Source: Gillisia sp. Hel1_33_143
Lineage (GTDB): Bacteria > Bacteroidota > Bacteroidia > Flavobacteriales > Flavobacteriaceae
Assembly: GCF_900104765.1 (NCBI RefSeq)
Contig: NZ_LT629737.1
Location: 310,001 to 374,000, forward strand
Length of the DNA: 64,000 nucleotides
Direction of reading: 5' to 3'
Shown: positions 274 through 36,430 of the stretch, piece after piece
How the letters are laid out: each line of letters opens with the position of its first letter
Position numbering within the stretch: the first letter of the stretch is position 1
Program-made: the position numbers and the translations under genes
The notes under the pieces: model-generated
What the model saw: the letters and a program-made list of their open reading frames with translations, nothing else
Database searches by the model: none
Told to the model about the DNA's origin: nothing

Positions 274-1518
274 TTAGTCGTCATCTCCCAATTCTGATTT
301 AATCATCTCGGAAGAGAGAATGTATGCTCCCTTTGTAACAATGGTTATATCTTTAGATATACCTGAAGGAAGGCTTATTTCCACATAGCCCAAATCACTT
401 ATCCCTATATTTACAGGAACCATATTGAACCTTAATTTATTTTCTTCTTTCTTGTCATTATCCTGTACGAAAATGAACGTTTTTTCACCATTTTTGACAA
501 TTGCATCCTCTGGTACCGCCAAGACCATTTTTTCACCTTGTACTATTCTACCTTCCACATACATTCCTGGAAGTAGGTCCTTATCTTTATTTTCGATATC
601 TGCCAGAACTTCCAGAGCTTTTGGGTCGGTGTTGAAGGTTTTACCTACAGACCGAACGGTCGCTTTAAGCAGTTCATCTGGACGAGAGGCTGTTGAAAAA
701 TGTATCTGTTGCCCTTTCTTGATTTGCTTTATGTCCTTCTCATATACTTTAAAATTGACATAAATCTTTGAATTATCGCTTATTGAGAACATTTTGGATT
801 GTTGTGCCACATAGTCGCCCAGGCTAATCATTACTTCATCCACATAGCCACTTATGGGTGTGGTAATGGGAACAGCGGAATATATCTGGCCTTCAGCTAC
901 TTTGTCTGGATTAATGCCCAACAGTCTCAATTGGGACCGCAAACCATTAACACTGGAGGTTGTTGAACGATATTGAGATTGCGCCATTTGGAACTCCTTA
1001 CCCGAGGAAACCCCTTTATCATAAAGGGTCTGCTTACGTTCAAAATCCTGTTTCAAAAAGACCAGTTCATCATTTTTTTCCTGATATTCCTGTTGCATTG
1101 CTATAATATCTGGATGTTCTATATATGCAAGCACCTGTCCTTTTCTAACATTATCCCCAGGAACAACTTTTATGGAGCTTACATTACCACCAACAAACGG
1201 ACTTATGTTCGCTTGGTCCTGTGGGAACAGTTCCAGCATTCCCGTAACTTTGATGTTATTCCCAAGATTCCTTTCTTCCAAAGTTTTGGTTTCCAAACCG
1301 ATGGTTTCGGCCTGTTGCATTGTAAGTATAACAACGCCTTCTTCTCCTTCTTCTTCTTCATTATGTTCACCTTCCTCAACGTGAGCATCTCCGTTATTTT
1401 TCATTTTTTCAGAGGTTGAACTATTTTCATTATGACCCATTTCCGACTCGGGTTTATCATTGCAGCCTACCATCAAGAATGTTATTATTGCCGCACTTAC
1501 TATTGCTATATTTCTCAT
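274..1518 (-). CDS. CusB/CzcB-type RND periplasmic adaptor (pump 1)
   Basis: 414-aa membrane-fusion protein joining the inner-membrane RND pump to the outer-membrane channel. It begins with a lipoprotein signal ending in LMVGC (Cys19), so it is probably lipid-anchored. Residues about 22-60 are very acidic with several His, a plausible metal-catching tail. Next come the lipoyl half-motif (GDNVRKGQVLAYIEHPDI), a long alpha-hairpin (about 130-205) and the beta-barrel and membrane-proximal domains. The start lies 19 nt after the stop of the upstream pump gene, so the two are co-transcribed. Its segment 941-1299 is almost identical to 20045-20403 in the adaptor of pump 2, while the flanks differ clearly. 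Metal specificity cannot be read from the adaptor. Confidence 0.93.
   Translation of the reverse strand: MRNIAIVSAAIITFLMVGCNDKPESEMGHNENSSTSEKMKNNGDAHVEEGEHNEEEEGEEGVVILTMQQAETIGLETKTLEERNLGNNIKVTGMLELFPQDQANISPFVGGNVSSIKVVPGDNVRKGQVLAYIEHPDIIAMQQEYQEKNDELVFLKQDFERKQTLYDKGVSSGKEFQMAQSQYRSTTSSVNGLRSQLRLLGINPDKVAEGQIYSAVPITTPISGYVDEVMISLGDYVAQQSKMFSISDNSKIYVNFKVYEKDIKQIKKGQQIHFSTASRPDELLKATVRSVGKTFNTDPKALEVLADIENKDKDLLPGMYVEGRIVQGEKMVLAVPEDAIVKNGEKTFIFVQDNDKKEENKLRFNMVPVNIGISDLGYVEISLPSGISKDITIVTKGAYILSSEMIKSELGDDD
941..1299. repeat. near-identical tract shared by adaptor genes 1 and 2
   Basis: These 359 bp match 20045-20403 with only a few differences, such as one base each near 949, 1108 and 1237. 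On both sides the two adaptor genes diverge abruptly. The tract codes for the alpha-hairpin and part of the lipoyl domain. The sharp edges inside otherwise diverged paralogues are the pattern left by gene conversion. Confidence 0.8.
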
Positions 1519-1537: not shown

Positions 1538-4500
1538 TTATAGGTTACCCAATTGGTATTGCAGCTCAATGGACTGCTGGTTAAACTGATTTATAAATTG
1601 TAAATGGTTTTGCTTGATCCTAATGGCACTATTCAGGATCGTGATATAGTTCACATAATCTATTTCACCTTCCTTTGAAGCTAGTTCTGCTGTAGATATT
1701 TGCTCTTCTGCCAAAAGCAATGCCCCTTCCTGATAGTAATTCAAGGTTTTTTGAGTTTTTTCCAAGGATTTTAAAAGTTGTGAAACCCTGCTTTCAGTAA
1801 CCGCTTTTTGCTCTAAGTATTGATTTTCAGCAACCCTCGCATCTGCCTTGGCAGCCTTGACCCTTGATTTTTGTGGTAAGAACCAAAGCGGGATACTAAT
1901 ACCGGCCTGATAGGAGTTAAAACCAGATATATCATCAACGACTTGCCTTCCATAGGAAAGGTTGAACTTGGGCAAAAACTGTGATTTTTCCACACCAATA
2001 TTTGCCTTGCTTACTTCAGCATTTTGCATTGAATACTGTAATAATGGATTGTCAGCTACGGATGCCGAATCAAGCACTGCCATATAATTCATCGTCTCGT
2101 ACGGCAATCCTACTGTTTCGATTTCTTGATCAATTCCCAAATACTGCTTTAAGGCTCTTTTGGCAATTTCAATATTGTCATAGGCCTGTTGCCGCAATAC
2201 TTGTATTTGTTGATATTCTGAGGAGGCTGCAATAAATTCCAGTTTTCCGGTTTCACCAGTGTCATAGCGCAATTGGGATGCAGTCCTAAAATTGGCATAA
2301 ACGCTGTCCAATTGTTCTGCAAAACGCAATTGTGCCCTATTATAGTTAATTTGGTCATAGGCTTGCATCACATTGCGCACCAACTGTTGCTCATTTAAGG
2401 CATAAAACTTTTCTCCCAATTGAACCCTTTCCTTATAAAACTTGGATTTGGAAAAGCCCGAAAGCAAATCGATATTTCCCTGTTGAAACCCAATTGTGGT
2501 CTGCACTCCAGGAAGTCCATTGCCAATTTCTTCCTTTCCAGTAAACACTTGGGTGTTTCCCAAGTCGAAGCTAGTGCCCTTCATAGCCTGCTCCCGTTCA
2601 ATAAATGCCCGACTTTCCTTTAATGAAGGATAATTCTTTTTGGCCATATCAATAGCTTCCTCCATAGTTATGGTTTGGGCTAGAGTCGTTTCTTGTGCAT
2701 TCGCGGTATTTGAAGATAAAAATCCTCCCAAGCCTAAAAGCACGACAATAAGTGAAGTTCTTTTATTGATATAGCTTACATCGCCATCATTATCTTTTTT
2801 CTCTTTTCGTGCTTCAAGCCAATAATAGAGAACAGGAAGAACCACCAAGGTTAATAAGGTTGCCGTTAGTAAGCCCCCAATAACCACCGTTGCCAATGGT
2901 CGCTGTACTTCTGCACCACCTGATGTGGAAACCGCCATTGGGATAAAGCCCATTATAGCAGCAGTTGCCGTTAAAAGAATAGGGCGCAACCTCTCGTGTG
3001 TCGCTTCATAGATTCGGTCTCTAATGTTTGTCATTCCACTTTCTTTGAGTTCATTGAATTTATTGATGAGGACGAGGCCATTTAATACGGCAACCCCAAA
3101 GAGCACTATAAAGCCTACACCTGCCGAGATACTAAAGGGCATCCCGCGTATCCATAATGCGAACACCCCACCAATGGCGGCAAGAGGAACGGCCATATAA
3201 ATCATAATGGATTGCGAAAATGAACCAAGGGCAAAATATAACAGTATAAATATGAGTGCCAAGGCTATAGGCACTACAATCATTAGACGGTCTGTAGCGC
3301 GCTGGAGGTTTTCGAAAGAACCACCGTAGGTAATATAGTAGCCAGGGGGAAGATTTAATTGGGCATCCAGTTTTTGCTGAATTTCCTCAACCATCGATTT
3401 TACATCACGTCCCCTTACATTGACCCCCACAGAAATACGCCTATAAGTATTATCTCTCGATATCTGCATAGGTCCAGGTTTATAACTAATATCGGCCACT
3501 TCTTTAAGAGGAACTTGTGCACCATTGGGAAGGTCGATATATAAATTCTTTAGACTATTAATGTCTTGACGGAATGACTCCGCAAGACGAATGACAACAT
3601 CAAATCTTTTTTCTCCTTCAAAAACAACACTTGCTTTTTCTCCGGCAAATGATGCGCTTACATAATCGTTCAACTTGTCAATTGTCACGCCGTACTGAGC
3701 CATTTTAGCTCTGTTATATTCCACGGTCATCTGAGGAAGCCCACTGGTTGCCTCCGCTCGAACATCACCGGCTCCGGGGACAGTTTTTATAATTGAAGCC
3801 ATTTCGTTTGCCTTCTCCGACAGTACGTCCAAATTTTCTCCATAAAGCTTTATTGCCACATCTTCTCGTACACCTGTGAGCAGTTCGTTAAAACGAAGTT
3901 CTACGGGTTGTGTGAATACAAAGTTCACACCTGGAATCACAGAAATACTCTCTTGAATTTTTTCGATAAGTTCTTCCTTAGTGTCTGCACTCGTCCATTT
4001 GCTTTTGTCTTTTTCAAGTATGATATAACTATCGGCAATATCCATAGGCATTGGATCGGTGGGTATTTCTGCCACACCAATTCTAGAAATCATTGTTTTG
4101 ACTTCGGGAAACTTTGTAATGATATTCTGTAGCTTTTTTGAAGCTTCAATTGATTCGGTAAGACTACTACCTGGTTTAATAAGAGCTTGCATTGCGATAT
4201 CGCCCTCATCAAATTTCGGGATGAATTCACCACCCATATTACTAAATATAAAGCCGGCTATCAATAATAAAGCAACAGCACTTATGATTACTCCGGCTTT
4301 AAATCTGAGGGCGAATGAAAGTAGGGGTCTATATACCTTATTAAGACCGGCCATAATACGATCACTAAACCTGTCAATCTTATTTTCAAACTTTGCGAAC
4401 CAGCTATCTGGATTTCTTGCAGGTTTAAGGAATAGTGCGGAAATCATTGGGACGTAGGTAAGGCAAAGGATAATGGCTCCAAGAACCGCGAAACCAAAGG

Positions 4501-5941
4501 TAAATGCCATTGGACGGAACATTTTGCCTTCAACGCCCGTTAGGAATAAAATTGGGGTAAATACAATAAGGATTATTAATTGGCCAAAGAATGCGGAGTT
4601 CATCATTGTACTTGCAGATTCATAGGCGATTTCATCCATTTCTGCCTGATTGACAAGCTTGGTGGACTTTTTCATTCTTTGATGAATGTGGAAAACCATT
4701 CCCTCAACGATAATTACGGCACCATCCACGATAATCCCAAAATCAATGGCGCCCAGTGACATTAGGTTTGCCCAAACGCCAAACTGTTTCATTAAAATAA
4801 AGGCGAATAAAAGCGATAAAGGAATTACAGATGCAGTAATCAATCCACCGCGTAAGCTTCCCAACAAGAGAACGAGGACAAATATCACGATCAGTGAGCC
4901 TTCGACCAAATTCTTTTCTACTGTGCTGGTCGTTCTTCCAATAAGCTCGCTTCTGCTCAAAAAGGGTTCAATATAAACACCTTCAGGAAGGGATTTTTGA
5001 ATTTCCTTTATTCGACTTTGTACATTGTTTATTACGTTATTGGCACTTTGCCCCTTAAGCATAAGAATTTGTCCGCCAACGGTTTCCTTTCCGTCTTGGG
5101 TAAACGCCCCATACCGTATTTGGCTCCCATAACCTACTTTTTCAGCCACGTCCCTTATTAATACTGGGGTGCCATTTTGTGTAATAACCACTGTGTTCTC
5201 TAAATCTTCAAGACTACGTGCTAGACCTTCTCCCCTTATAAAATTGGCCTGATGATTTTTTTCGATATAAGCTCCTCCAGTATTGGCGTTGTTCATTTTA
5301 AGGGCTTCAAACACTTCGCTCATCGTAATGCCAAAACTTTTGAGTTTATCTGGATTAAGAGCTATCTCATATTGCTTTACATATCCGCCAAAAGCATTGA
5401 CTTCCACAACACCGGGGACGAGCGCCATTTGCCGTTTTACAATCCAATCCTGTATGGTGCGAAGCTCCATAGCATCATACTGGTCTTCATAGCCCTCCTT
5501 AATTTTTAAGGTGTATTGAAATATTTCCCCCAATCCTGTGGTAATGGGAGCCATAAAAGGCGACCCAAAACCTTCTGGTATTTCTTCACTGACCTCCGCT
5601 AACTTTTCTTGTACCAGTTGGCGAGGAAGATAGGTCCCTGCCTCATCGTCAAAAACGATGGTAACCACAGAAAGACCAAAGCGTGATACAGAACGTAGTT
5701 CTATGACATTAGGCAAGTTGGCCATTGCGAGTTCCACAGGGTAGGTCACAAATTGCTCGATGTCTTCAGTACCCAAGTTTGGGGCAGTGGTTATTACTTG
5801 CACTTGATTATTGGTTATATCTGGAACGGAACCCAGATTAATAGTGGCCATTGACCAAACGCCTGTACCTACAAGGGCTACTATTAACAGACCAATAATA
5901 AATTTATTATTGATTGAAAATGAAATGATTTTATTAATCAT
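1538..5941 (-). CDS. HME-RND metal efflux pump fused to a TolC-like outer-membrane factor (pump 1)
   Basis: 1467-aa fusion. Residues 1 to about 1045 are a heavy-metal RND proton antiporter and about 1085-1467 a TolC/CzcC-type channel. The proton-relay helix reads DFGIIVDGAVIIVE, the form known from CzcA-type divalent-cation pumps rather than Cu/Ag CusA, so Zn/Co/Cd/Ni is favoured. A charged linker (EARKEKKDNDGD) is followed by a hydrophobic stretch ending TANAQ (about 1060-1081) that looks like an internal signal peptide, so the channel is probably released by signal peptidase. The start was set at the ATG at 5941 (MINKIISFSINNKF) because pump 2 starts at the same place and the upstream 13 codons are not conserved. 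The adaptor follows 19 nt downstream. The last 1.7 kb is almost identical to pump 2. Confidence 0.95.
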   Translation of the reverse strand: MINKIISFSINNKFIIGLLIVALVGTGVWSMATINLGSVPDITNNQVQVITTAPNLGTEDIEQFVTYPVELAMANLPNVIELRSVSRFGLSVVTIVFDDEAGTYLPRQLVQEKLAEVSEEIPEGFGSPFMAPITTGLGEIFQYTLKIKEGYEDQYDAMELRTIQDWIVKRQMALVPGVVEVNAFGGYVKQYEIALNPDKLKSFGITMSEVFEALKMNNANTGGAYIEKNHQANFIRGEGLARSLEDLENTVVITQNGTPVLIRDVAEKVGYGSQIRYGAFTQDGKETVGGQILMLKGQSANNVINNVQSRIKEIQKSLPEGVYIEPFLSRSELIGRTTSTVEKNLVEGSLIVIFVLVLLLGSLRGGLITASVIPLSLLFAFILMKQFGVWANLMSLGAIDFGIIVDGAVIIVEGMVFHIHQRMKKSTKLVNQAEMDEIAYESASTMMNSAFFGQLIILIVFTPILFLTGVEGKMFRPMAFTFGFAVLGAIILCLTYVPMISALFLKPARNPDSWFAKFENKIDRFSDRIMAGLNKVYRPLLSFALRFKAGVIISAVALLLIAGFIFSNMGGEFIPKFDEGDIAMQALIKPGSSLTESIEASKKLQNIITKFPEVKTMISRIGVAEIPTDPMPMDIADSYIILEKDKSKWTSADTKEELIEKIQESISVIPGVNFVFTQPVELRFNELLTGVREDVAIKLYGENLDVLSEKANEMASIIKTVPGAGDVRAEATSGLPQMTVEYNRAKMAQYGVTIDKLNDYVSASFAGEKASVVFEGEKRFDVVIRLAESFRQDINSLKNLYIDLPNGAQVPLKEVADISYKPGPMQISRDNTYRRISVGVNVRGRDVKSMVEEIQQKLDAQLNLPPGYYITYGGSFENLQRATDRLMIVVPIALALIFILLYFALGSFSQSIMIYMAVPLAAIGGVFALWIRGMPFSISAGVGFIVLFGVAVLNGLVLINKFNELKESGMTNIRDRIYEATHERLRPILLTATAAIMGFIPMAVSTSGGAEVQRPLATVVIGGLLTATLLTLVVLPVLYYWLEARKEKKDNDGDVSYINKRTSLIVVLLGLGGFLSSNTANAQETTLAQTITMEEAIDMAKKNYPSLKESRAFIEREQAMKGTSFDLGNTQVFTGKEEIGNGLPGVQTTIGFQQGNIDLLSGFSKSKFYKERVQLGEKFYALNEQQLVRNVMQAYDQINYNRAQLRFAEQLDSVYANFRTASQLRYDTGETGKLEFIAASSEYQQIQVLRQQAYDNIEIAKRALKQYLGIDQEIETVGLPYETMNYMAVLDSASVADNPLLQYSMQNAEVSKANIGVEKSQFLPKFNLSYGRQVVDDISGFNSYQAGISIPLWFLPQKSRVKAAKADARVAENQYLEQKAVTESRVSQLLKSLEKTQKTLNYYQEGALLLAEEQISTAELASKEGEIDYVNYITILNSAIRIKQNHLQFINQFNQQSIELQYQLGNL
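1547..3274. repeat. 1.73-kb near-identical tract shared by pump genes 1 and 2
   Basis: It corresponds base for base to 20634-22361 (constant offset 19087). I saw about ten substitutions, all between about 1790 and 2290, and none from there to 3274. Beyond 3274 the two genes drop at once to clearly lower identity, with many third-position changes. The tract covers the whole channel domain, the internal signal peptide and the last RND helices. Confidence 0.88.
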
Positions 5942-5953
5942 AAAAAAAGAAAG

Positions 5954-6074
5954 GTTTAATTCAGTGAAACTTATCGACACGAATTTGCCTTGAGCAAAAT
6001 CATATCAAATTAGAATTGACCTCAAGAAAAAGGTCAAAGAAGGATATAACTATCCTATAAAAACTGAATTAAAC
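5954..6074 (-). promoter_or_regulatory. conserved foldable RNA element between small secreted gene and pump gene (operon 1)
   Basis: Outer arms GTTTAATTCAGT (5954-5965) and its exact complement (6063-6074) enclose two inner hairpins: TTGACC/GGTCAA (6016-6037) and AGGATA-taac-TATCCT (6041-6056). The same plan lies at 25038-25158 in operon 2, with hairpin one read as TTAACC/GGTTAA, a paired compensatory change. The stop codon of the upstream small gene lies inside the outer arm and the pump start is 13 nt beyond the other arm. The element may control read-through, processing or translation of the pump. The function is inference; the pairing is seen directly. Confidence 0.6.
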
Positions 6075-6380
6075 ACGTGGAGGCTGGAATAGGGAGTGAG
6101 AAATATCTTTGCCCGAACCATCAAAATGAAAAAATATTTCAGATGAAATATCAAATGTTGGCACAGAGAATGTCAATATATCGACATTCACAATATTTAC
6201 GTGACAACCACTGCATAGACAAAAATTGACGCATACGGGCTGTTCGGTATTATCTGAATTATGATCTAACTGCGTCAGTAAGTCATTTTGAAAATCGTAT
6301 AAACTAACTTCACTATCATCACAGGGCACACCGTTGAGCACCAAAAAGTAAAGGGATAATATGACCGTTAATATTTTCAC
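6069..6380 (-). CDS. small exported Cys-rich protein preceding pump 1 (DUF6660-like)
   Basis: 103 aa with an N-terminal hydrophobic signal (ILTVILSLYFLVLNGVPC) that could be a Sec signal or lipobox ending at Cys20. The central part has the cysteine cluster CVNFCLCSGCHV, a likely metal or disulfide site, and the tail is SLFQPPRV. It resembles flavobacterial proteins of the DUF6660 type that precede metal RND pumps; I know no experimental function. The start is GTG at 6380. A TATCTTTG promoter box ends only 4 nt before it, so the transcript would be leaderless or nearly so. Equivalents occur at 25154-25549, 36044-36430 and 37464-37823. A periplasmic metal chaperone or sensor for the pump is plausible but unproven. 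Confidence 0.75.
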   Translation of the reverse strand: MKILTVILSLYFLVLNGVPCDDSEVSLYDFQNDLLTQLDHNSDNTEQPVCVNFCLCSGCHVNIVNVDILTFSVPTFDISSEIFFHFDGSGKDISHSLFQPPRV

Positions 6381-6384
6381 TCTG

Positions 6385-6421
6385 CAAAGATAAGAATATT
6401 GTGATGCACAGGTTATGCAAA
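6385..6421 (-). promoter_or_regulatory. promoter and operator-like element of pump operon 1
   Basis: On the minus strand TTTGCATAACCTGTGCA (6421-6405) is followed, 12 bp later, by TATCTTTG (6392-6385), a perfect Bacteroidota TAnnTTTG box. Operon 2 has the identical 17-mer, 12-bp gap and box at 25595-25559. The 17-mer contains inverted TGCA ends (TGCAtaacctgTGCA). The TTG within it lies 25 bp from the box, longer than usual, which would fit a promoter needing an activator. Confidence 0.65.
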
Positions 6422-19374: not shown

Positions 19375-20604
19375 TTAATGACCGTGTTCCAGTTCTCCTT
19401 TGACCATTTCAGAAGAAAGGGTATAGGCCCCACTTGTTACTATTTTAACATTTTTGGCAATTTCTGCTGGAAGGTTTACTTCTACAAAACCAAGATCGTT
19501 CAAGCCAGTACTAACAGGAATTCTCTTAAACTTCATCCTATTTTCTTCTGGCGCTTCATCCTCATCTACAATAAAAATGTAGGATTGTTCTCCTTCTTTT
19601 ACAATAGCTTCTTCTGGTACTGCATAACCAGATTTTTCTCCCTGAACGATCCTTCCCTCCACGTACATTCCTGGCAATAAATTCTTGTCTTTATTTTCGA
19701 TATCTGCTAATATCTCTATTGCCTTTGGATCACTCTCGAAGGTCTTACCTATAGAGCGTACAGTAGCTTTTAAAAGTGCATCAGGTCTTGAGGTGGTAGA
19801 AAAATAGATCTGCTGGCCTTCCTTTATGTGTTTTATGTCTTTTTCGTACACCTTAAAATTCACATAGATTTTTGAATTATCACTTATCGAAAACATTGTG
19901 GACTGAGGAGCCACGTAGTCTCCAAGACTTACCATCACTTCTCCCACATATCCGCTTAAAGGAGTGGTAATGGGTATTGCGGAAAAGATTTCGCCTTGGG
20001 CTACCTTGTCTGAATTAATACCCAACAAACGCAACCTTGATCTCAAACCATTTACACTGGAGGTTGTTGAACGATATTGAGATTGCGCCATTTGGAACTC
20101 CTTACCCGAGGAAACCCCTTTATCATAAAGGGTCTGCTTACGTTCAAAATCCTGTTTCAAAAAGACCAGTTCATCATTTTTTTCCTGATATTCCTGTTGC
20201 ATTGCTATGATATCTGGATGTTCTATATATGCAAGCACCTGTCCTTTTCTAACATTATCCCCAGGAACAACTTTTATGGAGCTTACATTACCACCAACAA
20301 ACGGACTTATGTTCGCTTTGTCCTGTGGGAACAGTTCCAGCATTCCCGTAACTTTGATGTTATTCCCAAGATTCCTTTCTTCCAAAGTTTTGGTTTCCAA
20401 ACCAATGGTCTCTATTTGTTGTTTGGTAAGTTCTACCGCACCTTCTTCTCCTTCTTCTTCCTCATTGTGCCCACTTTCCTCGTTCTCCATTGTTCCTGAA
20501 GTCGCGCTTTCTTCGTTATTGCCCAATTCAGAATCGGATTTGTCGTTACAGCCTATCAACAAGAGCGTTAATAAAACCGTAGTAATTATTGCTATATTTT
20601 TCAT
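19375..20604 (-). CDS. CusB/CzcB-type RND periplasmic adaptor (pump 2)
   Basis: 409 aa, paralogue of 274-1518. Lipoprotein signal with LLLIGC (Cys19), an acidic segment (EESGHNEEEEGEEG), alpha-hairpin at about 125-200, and barrel domains. It begins 20 nt after the pump gene. The middle of the gene (20045-20403) is almost identical to the adaptor of pump 1, but the C-terminal third differs (for example GELEHGH at the end, with two His). The different tail may reflect a different metal. Confidence 0.93.
   Translation of the reverse strand: MKNIAIITTVLLTLLLIGCNDKSDSELGNNEESATSGTMENEESGHNEEEEGEEGAVELTKQQIETIGLETKTLEERNLGNNIKVTGMLELFPQDKANISPFVGGNVSSIKVVPGDNVRKGQVLAYIEHPDIIAMQQEYQEKNDELVFLKQDFERKQTLYDKGVSSGKEFQMAQSQYRSTTSSVNGLRSRLRLLGINSDKVAQGEIFSAIPITTPLSGYVGEVMVSLGDYVAPQSTMFSISDNSKIYVNFKVYEKDIKHIKEGQQIYFSTTSRPDALLKATVRSIGKTFESDPKAIEILADIENKDKNLLPGMYVEGRIVQGEKSGYAVPEEAIVKEGEQSYIFIVDEDEAPEENRMKFKRIPVSTGLNDLGFVEVNLPAEIAKNVKIVTSGAYTLSSEMVKGELEHGH
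20045..20403. repeat. second copy of the adaptor conversion tract
   Basis: Partner of 941-1299, with offset 19104. Coding for the hairpin and lipoyl region of the adaptor, it is nearly free of differences, whereas the flanking coding sequence is diverged. Confidence 0.8.
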
Positions 20605-20624: not shown

Positions 20625-23600
20625 TTATAAATTACCCAATTGGTATTGCAGCTCAATGGACTGCTGGTTAAACTGATTTATAAATTGTAAATGGTTTTGC
20701 TTGATCCTAATGGCACTATTCAGGATCGTGATATAGTTCACATAATCTATTTCACCTTCCTTTGAAGCTAGTTCTGCTGTAGATATTTGCTCTTCTGCCA
20801 AAAGCAATGCCCCTTCCTGATAGTAATTCAAGGTTTTTTGAGTTTTTTCCAAGGATTTTAAAAGTTGTGAAACCCTGCTTTCGGTAACCGCTTTTTGCTC
20901 TAAGTATTGATTTTCAGCAACCCTCGCATCTGCCTTAGCGGCCTTGACCCTTGATTTTTGTGGTAAGAACCAAAGCGGGATACTAATACCGGCCTGATAG
21001 GAGTTAAAACCAGATATGTCATCAACGACTTGCCTTCCATAGGAAAGGTTGAACTTGGGTAAAAACTGTGATTTTTCCACACCAATATTTGCCTTGCTTA
21101 CTTCAGCATTTTGCATTGAATACTGTAATAATGGATTGTCAGCTACGGATGCCGAATCAAGCACTGCCATATAATTCATCGTTTCGTACGGCAATCCTAC
21201 TGTTTCGATTTCTTGATCAATTCCCAAATATTGCTTTAAGGCTCTTTTGGCAATTTCAATATTGTCATAGGCCTGTTGCCGCAATACTTGTATTTGTTGA
21301 TATTCGGAGGAGGCTGCAATAAATTCCAGTTTTCCAGTTTCACCAGTGTCATACCGCAATTGGGATGCAGTCCTAAAATTGGCATAAACGCTGTCCAATT
21401 GTTCTGCAAAACGCAATTGTGCCCTATTATAGTTAATTTGGTCATAGGCTTGCATCACATTGCGCACCAACTGTTGCTCATTTAAGGCATAAAACTTTTC
21501 TCCCAATTGAACCCTTTCCTTATAAAACTTGGATTTGGAAAAGCCCGAAAGCAAATCGATATTTCCCTGTTGAAACCCAATTGTGGTCTGCACTCCAGGA
21601 AGTCCATTGCCAATTTCTTCCTTTCCAGTAAACACTTGGGTGTTTCCCAAGTCGAAGCTAGTGCCCTTCATAGCCTGCTCCCGTTCAATAAATGCCCGAC
21701 TTTCCTTTAATGAAGGATAATTCTTTTTGGCCATATCAATAGCTTCCTCCATAGTTATGGTTTGGGCTAGAGTCGTTTCTTGTGCATTCGCGGTATTTGA
21801 AGATAAAAATCCTCCCAAGCCTAAAAGCACGACAATAAGTGAAGTTCTTTTATTGATATAGCTTACATCGCCATCATTATCTTTTTTCTCTTTTCGTGCT
21901 TCAAGCCAATAATAGAGAACAGGAAGAACCACCAAGGTTAATAAGGTTGCCGTTAGTAAGCCCCCAATAACCACCGTTGCCAATGGTCGCTGTACTTCTG
22001 CACCACCTGATGTGGAAACCGCCATTGGGATAAAGCCCATTATAGCAGCAGTTGCCGTTAAAAGAATAGGGCGCAACCTCTCGTGTGTCGCTTCATAGAT
22101 TCGGTCTCTAATGTTTGTCATTCCACTTTCTTTGAGTTCATTGAATTTATTGATGAGGACGAGGCCATTTAATACGGCAACCCCAAAGAGCACTATAAAG
22201 CCTACACCTGCCGAGATACTAAAGGGCATCCCGCGTATCCATAATGCGAACACCCCACCAATGGCGGCAAGAGGAACGGCCATATAAATCATAATGGATT
22301 GCGAAAATGAACCAAGGGCAAAATATAACAGTATAAATATGAGTGCCAAGGCTATAGGCACCACGATCATCAACCGGTCGGTCGCGCGTTGTAGATTCTC
22401 AAAAGAACCTCCGTAGGTTACGTAATATCCAGGTGGAAGTTTTACTTCAGCATCGAGTTTTTGTTGAATTTCCTCAACCATCGATTTCACGTCACGACCT
22501 CTAACATTGACCCCCACAGAAATACGCCTATAAGTATTATCTCTCGATATTTGCATAGGTCCAGGTTTATAGCTAATCTCCGCCACCTCTTTTAAAGGAA
22601 CTTGGTTACCACTGGGCAAATCGATATAAAGATTTTTTAAGCTATTGATGTCTTGTCGGTATTCTTTTGCTAGGCGGATAACCACATCAAATCGTTTTTC
22701 ACCTTCAAAAATTACTCCTGCTTTCTCTCCAGAAAAAGCTGCGCTTACGTAATCATTGAGTTTATCAACAGTAAGTCCATATTGTGCCATTTTTGCCCTG
22801 TTGTAGTTCACCGTAATCTGCGGTAGACCACTTGTAGCCTCCACATTAAGATCTGCAGCCCCAGGAACTGTTCTGATAACTGCAGCAATTTCTTGGATCT
22901 TATCTGACAGTACTCCCATATCTTCACCATATAATTTTATGGCAACATCTTCACGAACTCCTGTCAATAATTCATTGAAGCGGAGCTCTACGGGTTGTGT
23001 AAACACAAAGTTAACCCCAGGAATGACTGAAATTTTTTCTCGAATTTTCTCAATTAATCCCTCTTTGGTTTCGGCAGTTGTCCACTTGCTCTTGTCTTTT
23101 TCCAGAATTATATAGCTATCGGCTATATCCATAGGCATTGGATCTGTTGGAATTTCTGCTACACCAATACGCGAAATCATTGTTTTAACTTCCGGAAATT
23201 CTTTTATGATGTTTTGAAGCTTTTTGGAAGCTTCTATAGATTCTGTAAGACTGCTACCTGGCTTAATAAGAGCTTGCATCGCAATATCACCTTCATCAAA
23301 TTTTGGAATAAATTCACCACCCATATTGCTGAATATAAAACCAGCAATCAATAATAAAGCAACCGCTCCAATAACAACACCTGCTCTAAATCTAAGCGAG
23401 AAAGATAATAAAGGCTTATATGTTTTATTAAGCCCACCCATAATTCGATCACTGAATTTATCTATTTTATTCTCAAATTTTGCAAACCATCCATCTTGGT
23501 TTTTGGAAGGTTTTAGAAATAGAGCAGAAATCATCGGCACATAGGTCAAACAAAGTATTATAGCTCCTAAAACTGCAAAACCAAAAGTAAAGGCCATTGG

Positions 23601-25028
23601 TCGGAACATTTTTCCTTCAACCCCCGTTAAGAATAATATAGGAGTAAACACAATAAGAATAATTAATTGACCAAAGAATGCAGAATTCATCATTGTACTT
23701 GCCGACTCGTATGCTATCTCATCCATTTCAGCTTGATTAATAACTGCTTTGGATTTTTTTATCCTTTGATGAATATGGAATACCATTCCTTCCACAATAA
23801 TTACCGCACCATCTACGATGATTCCAAAATCAATAGCGCCCAAGGACATTAAATTTGCCCATACCCCGAATTGTTTCATTAATATAAATGCAAACAATAG
23901 GGAAAGTGGAATTACCGAGGCGGTTATCAAGCCTCCACGAAAACTTCCCAAAAGTAAAATCAAAACAAATATTACGATTAACGAACCTTCTATTAAATTT
24001 TTTTCTACCGTACTTGTTGTACGACCTATCAAATCACTTCTATCCAAGAAAGCTTCGATATACACCCCTTCAGGTAAAGACTTCTGAATTTCCTTGATAC
24101 GGGTTTTTACGTTTTCAATAACTTCGCCTGGGCTTTCACCTTTAAGCATTAGAATTTGCCCCCCAACGCTTTCCTTTCCATCCTGAGTAAATGCACCATA
24201 GCGTACTTGATTTCCGAATCCTACTTTTTCAGCGAGATCCCCAACTAAAACAGGTGTGCCATTTTGAGTGGTCACCACGGTATTTTCCAAATCTTCAAGA
24301 CTTCTGGCTAATCCTTCCCCCCGAATAAAGTTGGCCTGATGGTTTTTCTCTATATAGGCACCTCCAGTATTTGCATTATTATTCTTTAATGCTTCAAAGA
24401 CCTCACCCATAGTGACACCAAAACTTTTAAGTCTGTCTGGGTTAATAGCGACTTCATATTGTTTTACAAATCCTCCAGCTGCATTTACTTCCACAACGCC
24501 TGGAACCAATGCCATTTGTCGTTTTACAATCCAGTCTTGTATGGTTCGGAGTTCCATGGCGTCATATTGCCCTTCATAAGCCTTTTCTACTTTTAGAGAG
24601 TATTGGTAAATTTCTCCAAGCCCAGTTGTAATTGGCGCCATAAAAGGCGTACCGAAACCTTCAGGAATTTCTTCGCTTACCGCAGTCAGCTTTTCCTGAA
24701 CCAGTTGTCTGGGAAGATAGGTTCCCGCATCATCTTCAAAAACGATGGTTACCACAGAAAGTCCAAAACGAGATACGGAACGTAGCTCTATCACATCGGG
24801 AAGGTTGGCCATTGCCAGCTCTACAGGATATGTCACAAATTGCTCAATATCTTCAGTCCCAAGGTTGGGAGCTGTGGTAATTACTTGTACTTGATTATTT
24901 GTAATGTCTGGAACTGAGCCCAGATTTATAGTGGCCATCGACCAAATACCGGTACCGATAAGTGCTACTATTAAAAGACCCACAACAAATTTATTGTTGA
25001 TGGAAAATGAAATGATTTTATTAATCAT
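20625..25028 (-). CDS. HME-RND metal efflux pump fused to a TolC-like outer-membrane factor (pump 2)
   Basis: 1467-aa RND-channel fusion, the same length as pump 1. It keeps DFGIIVDGAVIIVE in TM4, the divalent-cation type. The internal signal-like helix is at about 1060-1081 ending TANAQ and the channel domain runs from about 1085 to the end. The N-terminal 890 residues differ from pump 1 at many positions in the periplasmic loops (for example DINSLKNLYIDLPSGNQ against ...PNGAQ), while the C-terminus is almost identical because of a shared 1.73-kb tract. Start at the ATG at 25028, which is 99 bases from the start codon-side arm of the conserved RNA element's far end. It is followed by adaptor, P-II-like, Fur-family and SpoIIAA-like genes. 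Confidence 0.95.
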   Translation of the reverse strand: MINKIISFSINNKFVVGLLIVALIGTGIWSMATINLGSVPDITNNQVQVITTAPNLGTEDIEQFVTYPVELAMANLPDVIELRSVSRFGLSVVTIVFEDDAGTYLPRQLVQEKLTAVSEEIPEGFGTPFMAPITTGLGEIYQYSLKVEKAYEGQYDAMELRTIQDWIVKRQMALVPGVVEVNAAGGFVKQYEVAINPDRLKSFGVTMGEVFEALKNNNANTGGAYIEKNHQANFIRGEGLARSLEDLENTVVTTQNGTPVLVGDLAEKVGFGNQVRYGAFTQDGKESVGGQILMLKGESPGEVIENVKTRIKEIQKSLPEGVYIEAFLDRSDLIGRTTSTVEKNLIEGSLIVIFVLILLLGSFRGGLITASVIPLSLLFAFILMKQFGVWANLMSLGAIDFGIIVDGAVIIVEGMVFHIHQRIKKSKAVINQAEMDEIAYESASTMMNSAFFGQLIILIVFTPILFLTGVEGKMFRPMAFTFGFAVLGAIILCLTYVPMISALFLKPSKNQDGWFAKFENKIDKFSDRIMGGLNKTYKPLLSFSLRFRAGVVIGAVALLLIAGFIFSNMGGEFIPKFDEGDIAMQALIKPGSSLTESIEASKKLQNIIKEFPEVKTMISRIGVAEIPTDPMPMDIADSYIILEKDKSKWTTAETKEGLIEKIREKISVIPGVNFVFTQPVELRFNELLTGVREDVAIKLYGEDMGVLSDKIQEIAAVIRTVPGAADLNVEATSGLPQITVNYNRAKMAQYGLTVDKLNDYVSAAFSGEKAGVIFEGEKRFDVVIRLAKEYRQDINSLKNLYIDLPSGNQVPLKEVAEISYKPGPMQISRDNTYRRISVGVNVRGRDVKSMVEEIQQKLDAEVKLPPGYYVTYGGSFENLQRATDRLMIVVPIALALIFILLYFALGSFSQSIMIYMAVPLAAIGGVFALWIRGMPFSISAGVGFIVLFGVAVLNGLVLINKFNELKESGMTNIRDRIYEATHERLRPILLTATAAIMGFIPMAVSTSGGAEVQRPLATVVIGGLLTATLLTLVVLPVLYYWLEARKEKKDNDGDVSYINKRTSLIVVLLGLGGFLSSNTANAQETTLAQTITMEEAIDMAKKNYPSLKESRAFIEREQAMKGTSFDLGNTQVFTGKEEIGNGLPGVQTTIGFQQGNIDLLSGFSKSKFYKERVQLGEKFYALNEQQLVRNVMQAYDQINYNRAQLRFAEQLDSVYANFRTASQLRYDTGETGKLEFIAASSEYQQIQVLRQQAYDNIEIAKRALKQYLGIDQEIETVGLPYETMNYMAVLDSASVADNPLLQYSMQNAEVSKANIGVEKSQFLPKFNLSYGRQVVDDISGFNSYQAGISIPLWFLPQKSRVKAAKADARVAENQYLEQKAVTESRVSQLLKSLEKTQKTLNYYQEGALLLAEEQISTAELASKEGEIDYVNYITILNSAIRIKQNHLQFINQFNQQSIELQYQLGNL
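20634..22361. repeat. second copy of the 1.73-kb pump conversion tract
   Basis: Partner of 1547-3274. The boundary at 22361 is sharp: after GGCAC the two genes differ at once. It codes for the last RND helices, the internal signal peptide and the whole channel domain. Confidence 0.88.
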
Positions 25029-25037
25029 GTAATGAGA

Positions 25038-25158
25038 TTTAATTCAGTTAAAATTGTCGAAATGATTATTAGCAATCGCGAAATCATACGAAACAGGAAT
25101 TAACCCTATGAGTAGGTTAAAAGAGGATATAGCTATCCTAAAAAAAAACTGAATTAAA
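25038..25158 (-). promoter_or_regulatory. conserved foldable RNA element between small secreted gene and pump gene (operon 2)
   Basis: Outer arms TTTAATTCAGTT (25038-25049) and AACTGAATTAAA (25147-25158), inner hairpins TTAACC/GGTTAA (25100-25120) and AGGATA-tagc-TATCCT (25124-25139). It has the same order and nearly the same spacing as 5954-6074. The TTGACC/GGTCAA stem of operon 1 is TTAACC/GGTTAA here, so both strands changed together. The stop codon of the small gene is inside the outer arm, as in operon 1. Confidence 0.6.
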
Positions 25159-25549
25159 CTTTAGGTGGTTGGAAAAGAGATTCCAGGTATCTGGAATTTA
25201 ATTGAAAATTATAGGAATTATACTCATTCTGTGACTCGGAGAATATCGGACTAATAGATGTTGGTTGAAAAGGGGACAAGAATACAAAATGCAAACAACA
25301 TTGATGATTTGTATGCACAGGCGCATTTTCGTGGTCCGGATCTGGATGGTGGTTATCCAATTTGCCATCATCTTTTAAGTAATCTTGATAAACGTAATCG
25401 ATGAATGAATATCCATCATCTTGTCTGTGATCTTTAAAATGCTCAACAAAATGGGATATTTCTTCAATTTGTTCACAAATTTCCATATTGGCGGCTATTC
25501 CTTGAAAAAAGAATAAAAAAGACATTGATATGGAAATGATTATTTTCAT
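25154..25549 (-). CDS. small exported His/Cys protein preceding pump 2
   Basis: 131 aa. N-terminal signal MKIIISISMSFLFFFQGIAA. The mature protein has an acidic/His segment (LDNHHPDPDHENAPVHTNHQ), then CCLHF, and ends SLFQPPKV, almost the tail of the pump 1 counterpart. The His-Cys cluster is a plausible periplasmic metal site. It lies directly upstream of pump 2, separated by the conserved RNA element. The family is small and uncharacterised as far as I know; a role as metal chaperone or sensor for the pump is inference. Confidence 0.75.
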   Translation of the reverse strand: MKIIISISMSFLFFFQGIAANMEICEQIEEISHFVEHFKDHRQDDGYSFIDYVYQDYLKDDGKLDNHHPDPDHENAPVHTNHQCCLHFVFLSPFQPTSISPIFSESQNEYNSYNFQLNSRYLESLFQPPKV

Positions 25550-25558
25550 AAAGTTTCA

Positions 25559-25595
25559 CAAAGATAATTTAATTGTAGTGCACAGGTTATGCAAA
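25559..25595 (-). promoter_or_regulatory. promoter and operator-like element of pump operon 2
   Basis: TTTGCATAACCTGTGCA (25595-25579), a 12-bp gap, then TATCTTTG (25566-25559), 9 nt before the ATG at 25549. The 17-mer, gap length and box are the same as at 6385-6421, although the 12 bp between them differ at several positions. Confidence 0.65.
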
Positions 25596-35837: not shown

Positions 35838-36043
35838 TATAGTAGAAGAATTTTAAGATGGAAAACGAAAATGGAAAACATCAAGAGCTGACCTTATAGG
35901 CCCTTGAAAAAAAGGCATATAGTTTTAATGCTAAAGATGAATTAGGGAAATAGTTATAACAAAGAATTATGTCATAACTAAATAGGGATATAAATATCAT
36001 CAAGTTCAGTTGAAGCTTGAATAGTATATATCACCTTAAGAAA

Positions 36044-36430
36044 TTAACAAGACGGAGGTCCCCGAAGGGTATGGGAAGGTAATGCTGAAAAATATGGAAT
36101 TATAGGATAATCCCGAAAACGTTGCTTTTCAAAATTCGCGAACCAAATTTCTTGATTGTCAATGTGAACATTTAAAGGCGAGTTTTGAAAAATTTTAATT
36201 TTTACATCTAGATTTTTAACGGTGCCCGTTACATACTTTAAACTTCTTTCATTCAAGGAATGCTGGAAGTGCTCAAAAATATGGCCAAGCTCTAGATGTT
36301 CTTGAGCTATTTGTTGAGAACCTATTTCAGAAGCATTAGAAACGTGCTCAGCATCAATATGAGGTACGATGTCGTGACCTATCATATTGAAGGCTGCTGC
36401 AAAGAACAGTATATTTCTAAATAGCTTCAA
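36044..36430 (-). CDS. small exported protein preceding pump 3
   Basis: 128 aa. It starts at TTG (36430): KLFRNILFFAAAFNMIGHDI looks like a signal peptide, and no in-frame ATG lies upstream before a stop; the first internal ATG is codon 17. The mature part has several His (HIDAEH, HLELGHIFEHFQHS) and ends SHTLRGPPSC, with the Pro-Pro tail seen in the other small pump-linked proteins. It lies 206 nt upstream of the pump 3 start. That gap holds a weak inverted repeat but not the structured element of operons 1 and 2. Likely the same functional class; low identity makes this an inference. Confidence 0.65.
   Translation of the reverse strand: MKLFRNILFFAAAFNMIGHDIVPHIDAEHVSNASEIGSQQIAQEHLELGHIFEHFQHSLNERSLKYVTGTVKNLDVKIKIFQNSPLNVHIDNQEIWFANFEKQRFRDYPIIPYFSALPSHTLRGPPSC

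Follow-up and report, generated by a model that had tools for sequence, protein, structure and literature searches.

A conserved branched RNA lies between the gene for a small Cys/His-rich protein, presumably exported, and the gene for a metal-efflux pump in many marine bacteria. The closing stem of this RNA begins at the stop codon of the small gene, suggesting that the ribosome finishing the small protein probably decides whether the pump is made. The element was examined in a window of 64,000 nucleotides from Gillisia sp. Hel1_33_143 (contig NZ_LT629737.1, positions 310,001 to 374,000), which contains two copies, each in a pump operon read from the minus strand (Table 1). We propose that the small protein acts as a nascent-chain metal sensor and the RNA as a lineage-specific translational switch, by analogy with the CutF and CruR systems. 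Both ribosome arrest and the response to metal are inferred.

Structure of the RNA element

A sequence-only reading had identified 12-bp outer arms enclosing two hairpins in the same order and spacing in both gaps, with a compensatory change in one stem, and had proposed a conserved RNA element kept by pairing while leaving its role open. That observation is confirmed and its interpretation supported. The arms of copy 1 are exact, while copy 2 has 12-bp arms in the same register (TTTAATTCAGTT/AACTGAATTAAA). The two named hairpins are P2 (AGGATANYTATATCCT) and P3, the stem of the latter being TTGACC/GGTCAA in copy 1 and TTAACC/GGTTAA in copy 2, a G-C to A-U change on both sides. Folded as RNA on the minus strand, the gaps reach -43.5 and -29.3 kcal/mol (z = -7.3 and -4.8 against dinucleotide shuffles), with 0 of 200 shuffles as stable for each. 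The plus strand also folds better than shuffles (z = -5.3 and -3.5). Two corrections to the earlier description are needed. A third hairpin, P4, lies in the same loop, making copy 1 a four-way junction, and the sequence between the stems is not entirely free, since the P2 loop reads NYUA in all 31 loci first examined, in a search that left the loop open. The earlier reading also missed that the element starts at the stop codon of the upstream gene, and that this gene ends in an arrest-like QPP motif.

The two copies are 74% identical and could on their own be paralogues. Neither a DNA search nor a covariance model, R1, finds a further copy in the genome (R1 scores 97.7 and 89.9 bits for the two copies; next hit 27.1 bits, E 0.36). 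No Rfam family matches either copy: at gathering scores only a tRNA is found in the window, and the best permissive hits (E 0.87 at copy 1 and E 2.7 at copy 2) all fall far below gathering scores.

Table 1. Features of the pump operons, with positions in the 64,000-nucleotide window.
Feature	Position	Strand	Description
Adaptor, operon 1	274..1518	-	Periplasmic adaptor; HlyD_D23, TIGR01730
Pump 1	1538..5941	-	CzcA/CusA-type RND pump fused to a TolC-like domain (ACR_tran, OEP, TIGR00914); ATG at 5939-5941; best PDB match ZneA
Pump 1 first codons	5925-5941		AUGAUUAAUAAAAUCAU; self-complementary around the start codon
P1 3' arm, copy 1	5954..5965	-	ACTGAATTAAAC; 12 nt before the pump start codon
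P4 hairpin, copy 1	5974..6008	-	Ends approximate
P3 hairpin, copy 1	6016..6037	-	TTGACC...GGTCAA
P2 hairpin, copy 1	6041..6056	-	AGGATAGTTATATCCT; loop GUUA
P1 5' arm, copy 1	6063..6074	-	GTTTAATTCAGT
Stop codon, leader 1	6069..6071	-	TAA
Leader gene 1	6069..6380	-	103-aa DUF6660 protein (PF20365, E 8.8e-24); hydrophobic N-terminus; GTG start; ends SLFQPPRV-stop
TGCA-N7-TGCA, operon 1	6405-6419		Upstream of the leader start
Adaptor, operon 2	19375..20604	-	Periplasmic adaptor; HlyD_D23
Pump 2	20625..25028	-	Same architecture as pump 1
P1 3' arm, copy 2	25038..25049	-	
P4 hairpin, copy 2	25057..25091	-	Ends approximate
P3 hairpin, copy 2	25100..25120	-	TTAACC...GGTTAA
P2 hairpin, copy 2	25124..25139	-	Loop GCUA
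P1 5' arm, copy 2	25147..25158	-	
Leader gene 2	25154..25549	-	131-aa Cys/His-rich protein without a Pfam match; ends SLFQPPKV-stop
TGCA-N7-TGCA, operon 2	25579-25593		Upstream of the leader start
Gap, operon 3	35838-36043		No recognisable copy of the element
Leader gene 3	36044-36430	-	His-rich 128-aa protein; ends LRGPPSC-stop

Distribution and covariation

A DNA search of 149 genomes of the family listed matches in 98 at E up to 0.1, many of them short and weak. Loci were retrieved for the best of these, from 29 other genomes, and all 29 have the same architecture before the same pump. Of 119 hits to a sequence pattern of the element, 101 have a 3' arm (at least 8 of 11 bases) and the pump downstream, five are cut by the end of the locus, and 13 have no pump and are taken as chance. 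Most of these 13 are in unrelated taxa, and three of them have an 8-9 of 11 arm match 130-259 nt away. The arms were thus not found before unrelated genes. In 397 genomes of the family, 88 carry the pattern (73 of 237 genera), whereas the pattern read backwards occurs in one. Of 20 of these hits, chosen mostly for odd variants, 17 are real and three are chance, so at least two of the 88 genomes hold only a chance hit. Named holders include Winogradskyella, Maribacter, Aquimarina, Leeuwenhoekiella, Gillisia, Salinimicrobium, Tenacibaculum and Polaribacter. A search with R1 over 395 genomes of the class found the element in only four, all of the window's family, though this is a weak negative because the stricter filters scored nine candidates per genome.

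Over 108 distinct elements, P1 pairs in 105-108 at each of ten positions counted from the first base of the stop codon, with G-C 102, G-U 3 and A-U 2 at one pair, and G-U 3 where the stop is TAG. P2 (GGAUA-NYUA-UAUCC) shows U-A 99, U-G 5, C-G 3 and C-A 1 at one pair, and A-U 80, U-A 5, G-C 2 and G-U 1 at its base, where 20 of 108 do not pair. In this count the inner 5' arm, the P2 frame and the loop bases YUA were fixed by the search pattern and the 3' arm was chosen as the best match. On the alignment behind R1 (28 rows, comprising 29 non-redundant elements less four, with three short forms added), P1 and P2 show almost no covariation because they hardly vary: 90.6% of cells are paired against 90.2% shuffled, with 105 of 500 shuffles as high, and two pairs show double changes (15 of 500).

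The middle hairpins differ freely in sequence but fold, 29 non-redundant middles having a mean z of -3.23, with 26 of 29 below -2. Where both sides of a pair differ, the pair is kept in 1122 of 1751 cells against 3318 of 8373 in slid controls, while single changes keep it in 3693 of 8634 against 23400 of 59304. These counts derive from 1848 ordered pairs of related sequences and are not independent events. In a sample of 32 of 96 elements the mean z is -5.38, against -0.44 for 90 stretches further downstream in the same loci, 6 of which fall below -2. The antisense strand folds nearly as well (mean z -4.70), the sense strand being lower in 21 of 32. A compact form without P4 exists in four loci.

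The leader genes

In 96 of 96 distinct elements P1 begins at the stop codon of the upstream ORF, 93 TAA and 3 TAG, the TAGs keeping a G-U pair. The base before the stop pairs in only 39 of 108 elements, copy 1 among them. The ORFs are of two main types, DUF6660-like and a 131-aa type with no Pfam family, with a hydrophobic N-terminus seen by eye. By profile comparison (7 against 5 sequences) the two types share only their last 15 residues, yet they have the same RNA. CxxxCxCxxC is invariant in the 7 aligned DUF6660-type leaders and QCC in the 5 aligned leaders of the other type. One of five members of the 131-aa type matches DUF2946, the family of CutF and CruR, weakly (E 0.0052).

The leaders typically end (F/L/W)QPP(R/K/Q)(V/A)-stop. 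Distinct C-termini read PP in 86 of 86 and Q before it in 83 of 86, followed by R/Q/K and V/A/I, and PP is followed by exactly two residues in 91 of 91 Flavobacteriaceae leaders. The last CC lies 40-43 residues before PP in the 87 of 91 that were counted automatically. Only one of the 91, leader 1 of the window, has no CC at all, its last motif Cys lying 40 residues before PP by manual count. In one further locus the element is intact before the pump but the reading frame into its stop does not end in QPP (a damaged leader or another frame).

TGCA-N7-TGCA lies upstream of the leader start in both operons and in 87 of 96 homologous loci, and in 15 examples inspected it is followed by a TAnnTTTG promoter-like box. 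It is probably a shared transcriptional operator. The third pump operon of the window has no recognisable copy of the element, but its leader ends in an RGPP arrest-like motif and the stretch 35838-36060 folds well (z = -3.8). Homologues of this leader were found in only 2 of 120 family genomes, the window's included.

Stop-anchored pairing in other families of the class

PF20365 was found in 51 of 247 genomes of the class, with 59 matches listed. Of 50 loci examined, 45 gave a leader, gap and pump start. The C-termini of these leaders read WQPP(K/Q/R) in 34 of 45 and (W/F/L)xPP in 45 of 45, the latter partly by choice since ORFs with PP were preferred. The distance from the last CC to PP is 39-44 residues in 44 of 45, the exception being leader 1 of the window. 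In two other genomes a DUF6660 leader ending WQPP stands before what by eye looks like a TonB-dependent receptor instead of a pump, as CruR does (retrieved loci L182:1889-3313 and L188:1-1398).

Eight of the 45 gaps are longer than 185 nt and were left out of the pairing tests. In the remaining 37, the arm starting at the stop pairs better with its own partner before the pump start than with the partners of other genomes (12.95 against 9.32, sd 0.42, 0 of 5000 permutations). The same holds for the 34 gaps outside the window's family (12.71 against 9.20) and for the 26 of them without the TAATGA class (11.69 against 8.56), both 0 of 5000. The test does not correct for relatedness, and one by one only 12 of 34 gaps reach p < 0.05 for a stop-anchored helix, with 3 reaching p < 0.01. 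Arms such as TAATGAAT/ATTCATTA, TAATCGTT/AACGATTA, TAAGTCAGT/ATTGACTTA and TAATTCAAC/GTTGAATTA show that the pairing, not the sequence, is kept across families. Two genomes of the window's family, of one genus, have DUF6660-pump gaps with the TAATGA-type arm used elsewhere in the class instead of this element. By eye, P2-like hairpins with a (N)NYUA loop but other stem bases (e.g. AGGGCA...UGUCCU) appear near the stop codon in three gaps outside the family.

Proposed mechanism

P2 starts 13-20 nt after the first base of the stop in 95 of 95 elements, and the P1 3' arm ends 9-15 nt before the pump ATG in 94 of 95, the exception (34 nt) being an element whose arm we take to be misplaced. Assuming a footprint of about 13 nt from the stop, a ribosome with the stop in its A site would cover the P1 5' arm but not P2. 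In a partition-function model over 94 elements, masking the ribosome lowers the cost of opening -22 to +14 around the pump start from 11.3 to 4.8-4.9 kcal/mol once its edge is 6 nt or more past the first base of the stop. The first codons of the pump gene are themselves self-complementary around the start codon in many homologues, which may reflect coding constraint or a second lock.

We therefore propose, with moderate confidence and in the absence of expression, ribosome or metal data, that P1 closes the initiation region of the pump at rest. When the ribosome reaches the last codons of the leader it would cover the 5' arm of P1 while P2 stays outside and folded, so that the 3' arm is freed and the pump can be initiated. 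The distance of about 40 residues between PP and the Cys/His motif, roughly one exit tunnel, fits a nascent chain whose putative metal motif has just emerged. Binding of metal at that moment is proposed to lengthen the pause at QPP(R/K/Q)(V/A)-stop, so that the pump is made when periplasmic metal is high, the sign expected for a detoxifying pump and that of CutF. The leader protein itself may be expendable. Several points weigh against this model. QPP(R/K/Q) does not appear to be a known strong arrest sequence, and a C-terminal motif could instead serve the mature protein. If arrest occurs with both prolines in the P and A sites, as for CruR, the modelled ribosome edge reaches only +3 and opens P1 partly (7.1 kcal/mol). 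Nor does the model explain why P1 and P2 are nearly invariant in sequence.

The identity of the metal is not certain, though a divalent cation (Zn, Co, Cd or Ni) is more likely than Cu(I). The best solved relative of the pump is ZneA (675 bits), ahead of CusA (570 bits). At the presumed positions of the three CusA methionines the aligned pump residues read Q, I and E, and the fourth helix reads DFGIIVDGAV as in ZneA.

Alternative explanations

Plain translational coupling, in which the stem only makes pump translation depend on leader translation at a fixed ratio without metal sensing, is the strongest alternative, though we consider it unlikely. It explains the position of P1 at the stop codon, the start-proximal 3' arm and the opening model. 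It does not explain the QPP end shared by two otherwise dissimilar leaders, the nearly constant distance from the Cys motif, or the near-invariant P2.

Binding or cleavage of P1/P2 by an RNA-binding protein or nuclease, setting the stability of the leader and pump parts of the transcript, is less likely still. The sequence of P1 and P2, with the NYUA loop, is far more constant than pairing alone needs, although part of it was fixed by the search pattern. Such a site does not, however, explain the fixed register with the stop codon or the shared leader C-terminus.

A metal- or metabolite-binding riboswitch is improbable. The junction architecture upstream of a metal pump and the near-invariance of P1 and P2 would be consistent with one, the NiCo and yybP-ykoY classes seemingly also being multi-way junction RNAs before metal transporters. 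However, the conserved bases lie in helices and one hairpin loop rather than in the junction strands, P3 and P4 vary freely and the compact form has no P4, no Rfam family matches either copy, and other families of the class keep the stop-anchored stem with different sequence.

A DNA-level element (an operator, or inverted repeats of a mobile element) is very unlikely, since although the inverted repeats let both strands fold well, G-U pairs are used in P1 and P2, the NYUA loop is not symmetric, unlike a dimer's operator, the register with stop and start codons is fixed, and the 101 complete elements all stand before the same pump.

Relation to known systems

Exported metal-sensing leaders that act on the next gene are already known. 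CutF of Rhodobacter capsulatus (cutFOG; mBio 2023, PMC9973294) is likewise a small exported Cys-motif protein with a proline-rich end, followed by an RNA stem-loop and a gene whose protein is produced in response to metal. Its proline-rich end did not act as a strong stalling sequence by itself in the published assay. The RNA there is a stem-loop hiding a Shine-Dalgarno sequence before a multicopper oxidase, while here a multi-branched RNA starts at the stop codon before an RND pump, and leader 1 is a DUF6660 protein. The published list of CutF-like proteins is 40% Bacteroidota after normalisation (19% without) and has ACR_tran pumps among the downstream genes of the whole list. In the parts of that paper consulted, gap lengths but not RNA structures are compared across the list, and no conserved RNA of this form appears.

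CruR of Bordetella pertussis (mBio 2022, PMC9426467; EMBO J 2025, PMC12992588) has a CXXC motif and a C-terminal RAPP 45 residues apart and acts on the next gene. It arrests at RAPP in vitro, and changing the spacing by five strongly reduced the copper effect. Copper there lowers expression through Rho-dependent termination before a TonB receptor. Bacteroidota are named in the EMBO J paper among the groups where Cu-related RAPP/RGPP leaders were not found, and leaders 1 and 2 end QPP(R/K). SecM, VemP and MifM (named in PMC9973294) are exported arrest peptides that control the next gene through the stalled ribosome, but they appear to sense export rather than metal, and their arrest sequences seem unrelated.

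No description of this RNA was found in Rfam or in the literature searched, although an earlier sighting in a 224-candidate RNA survey is possible and a 104-candidate survey and the Flavobacterium psychrophilum transcriptome were covered only in part. The term DUF6660 was found in none of the papers searched. A more speculative and rather doubtful reading is that many RND pump operons across Bacteroidia are led by DUF6660-type sensors read by the ribosome, each with a lineage-specific stop-anchored RNA, and that in Flavobacteriaceae this RNA has become a second input because the invariant P1/P2 with its NYUA loop is recognised by a dedicated factor or contacts the paused ribosome itself.

Metal control in Bacteroidota appears to be little known, and in the papers consulted the metal-sensing nascent chains tested are from Proteobacteria and one Actinomycete. 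Our analysis places a likely member of that kind, with an undescribed conserved RNA, before pump genes across Flavobacteriaceae, and the same stop-anchored design is seen in other families of the class.
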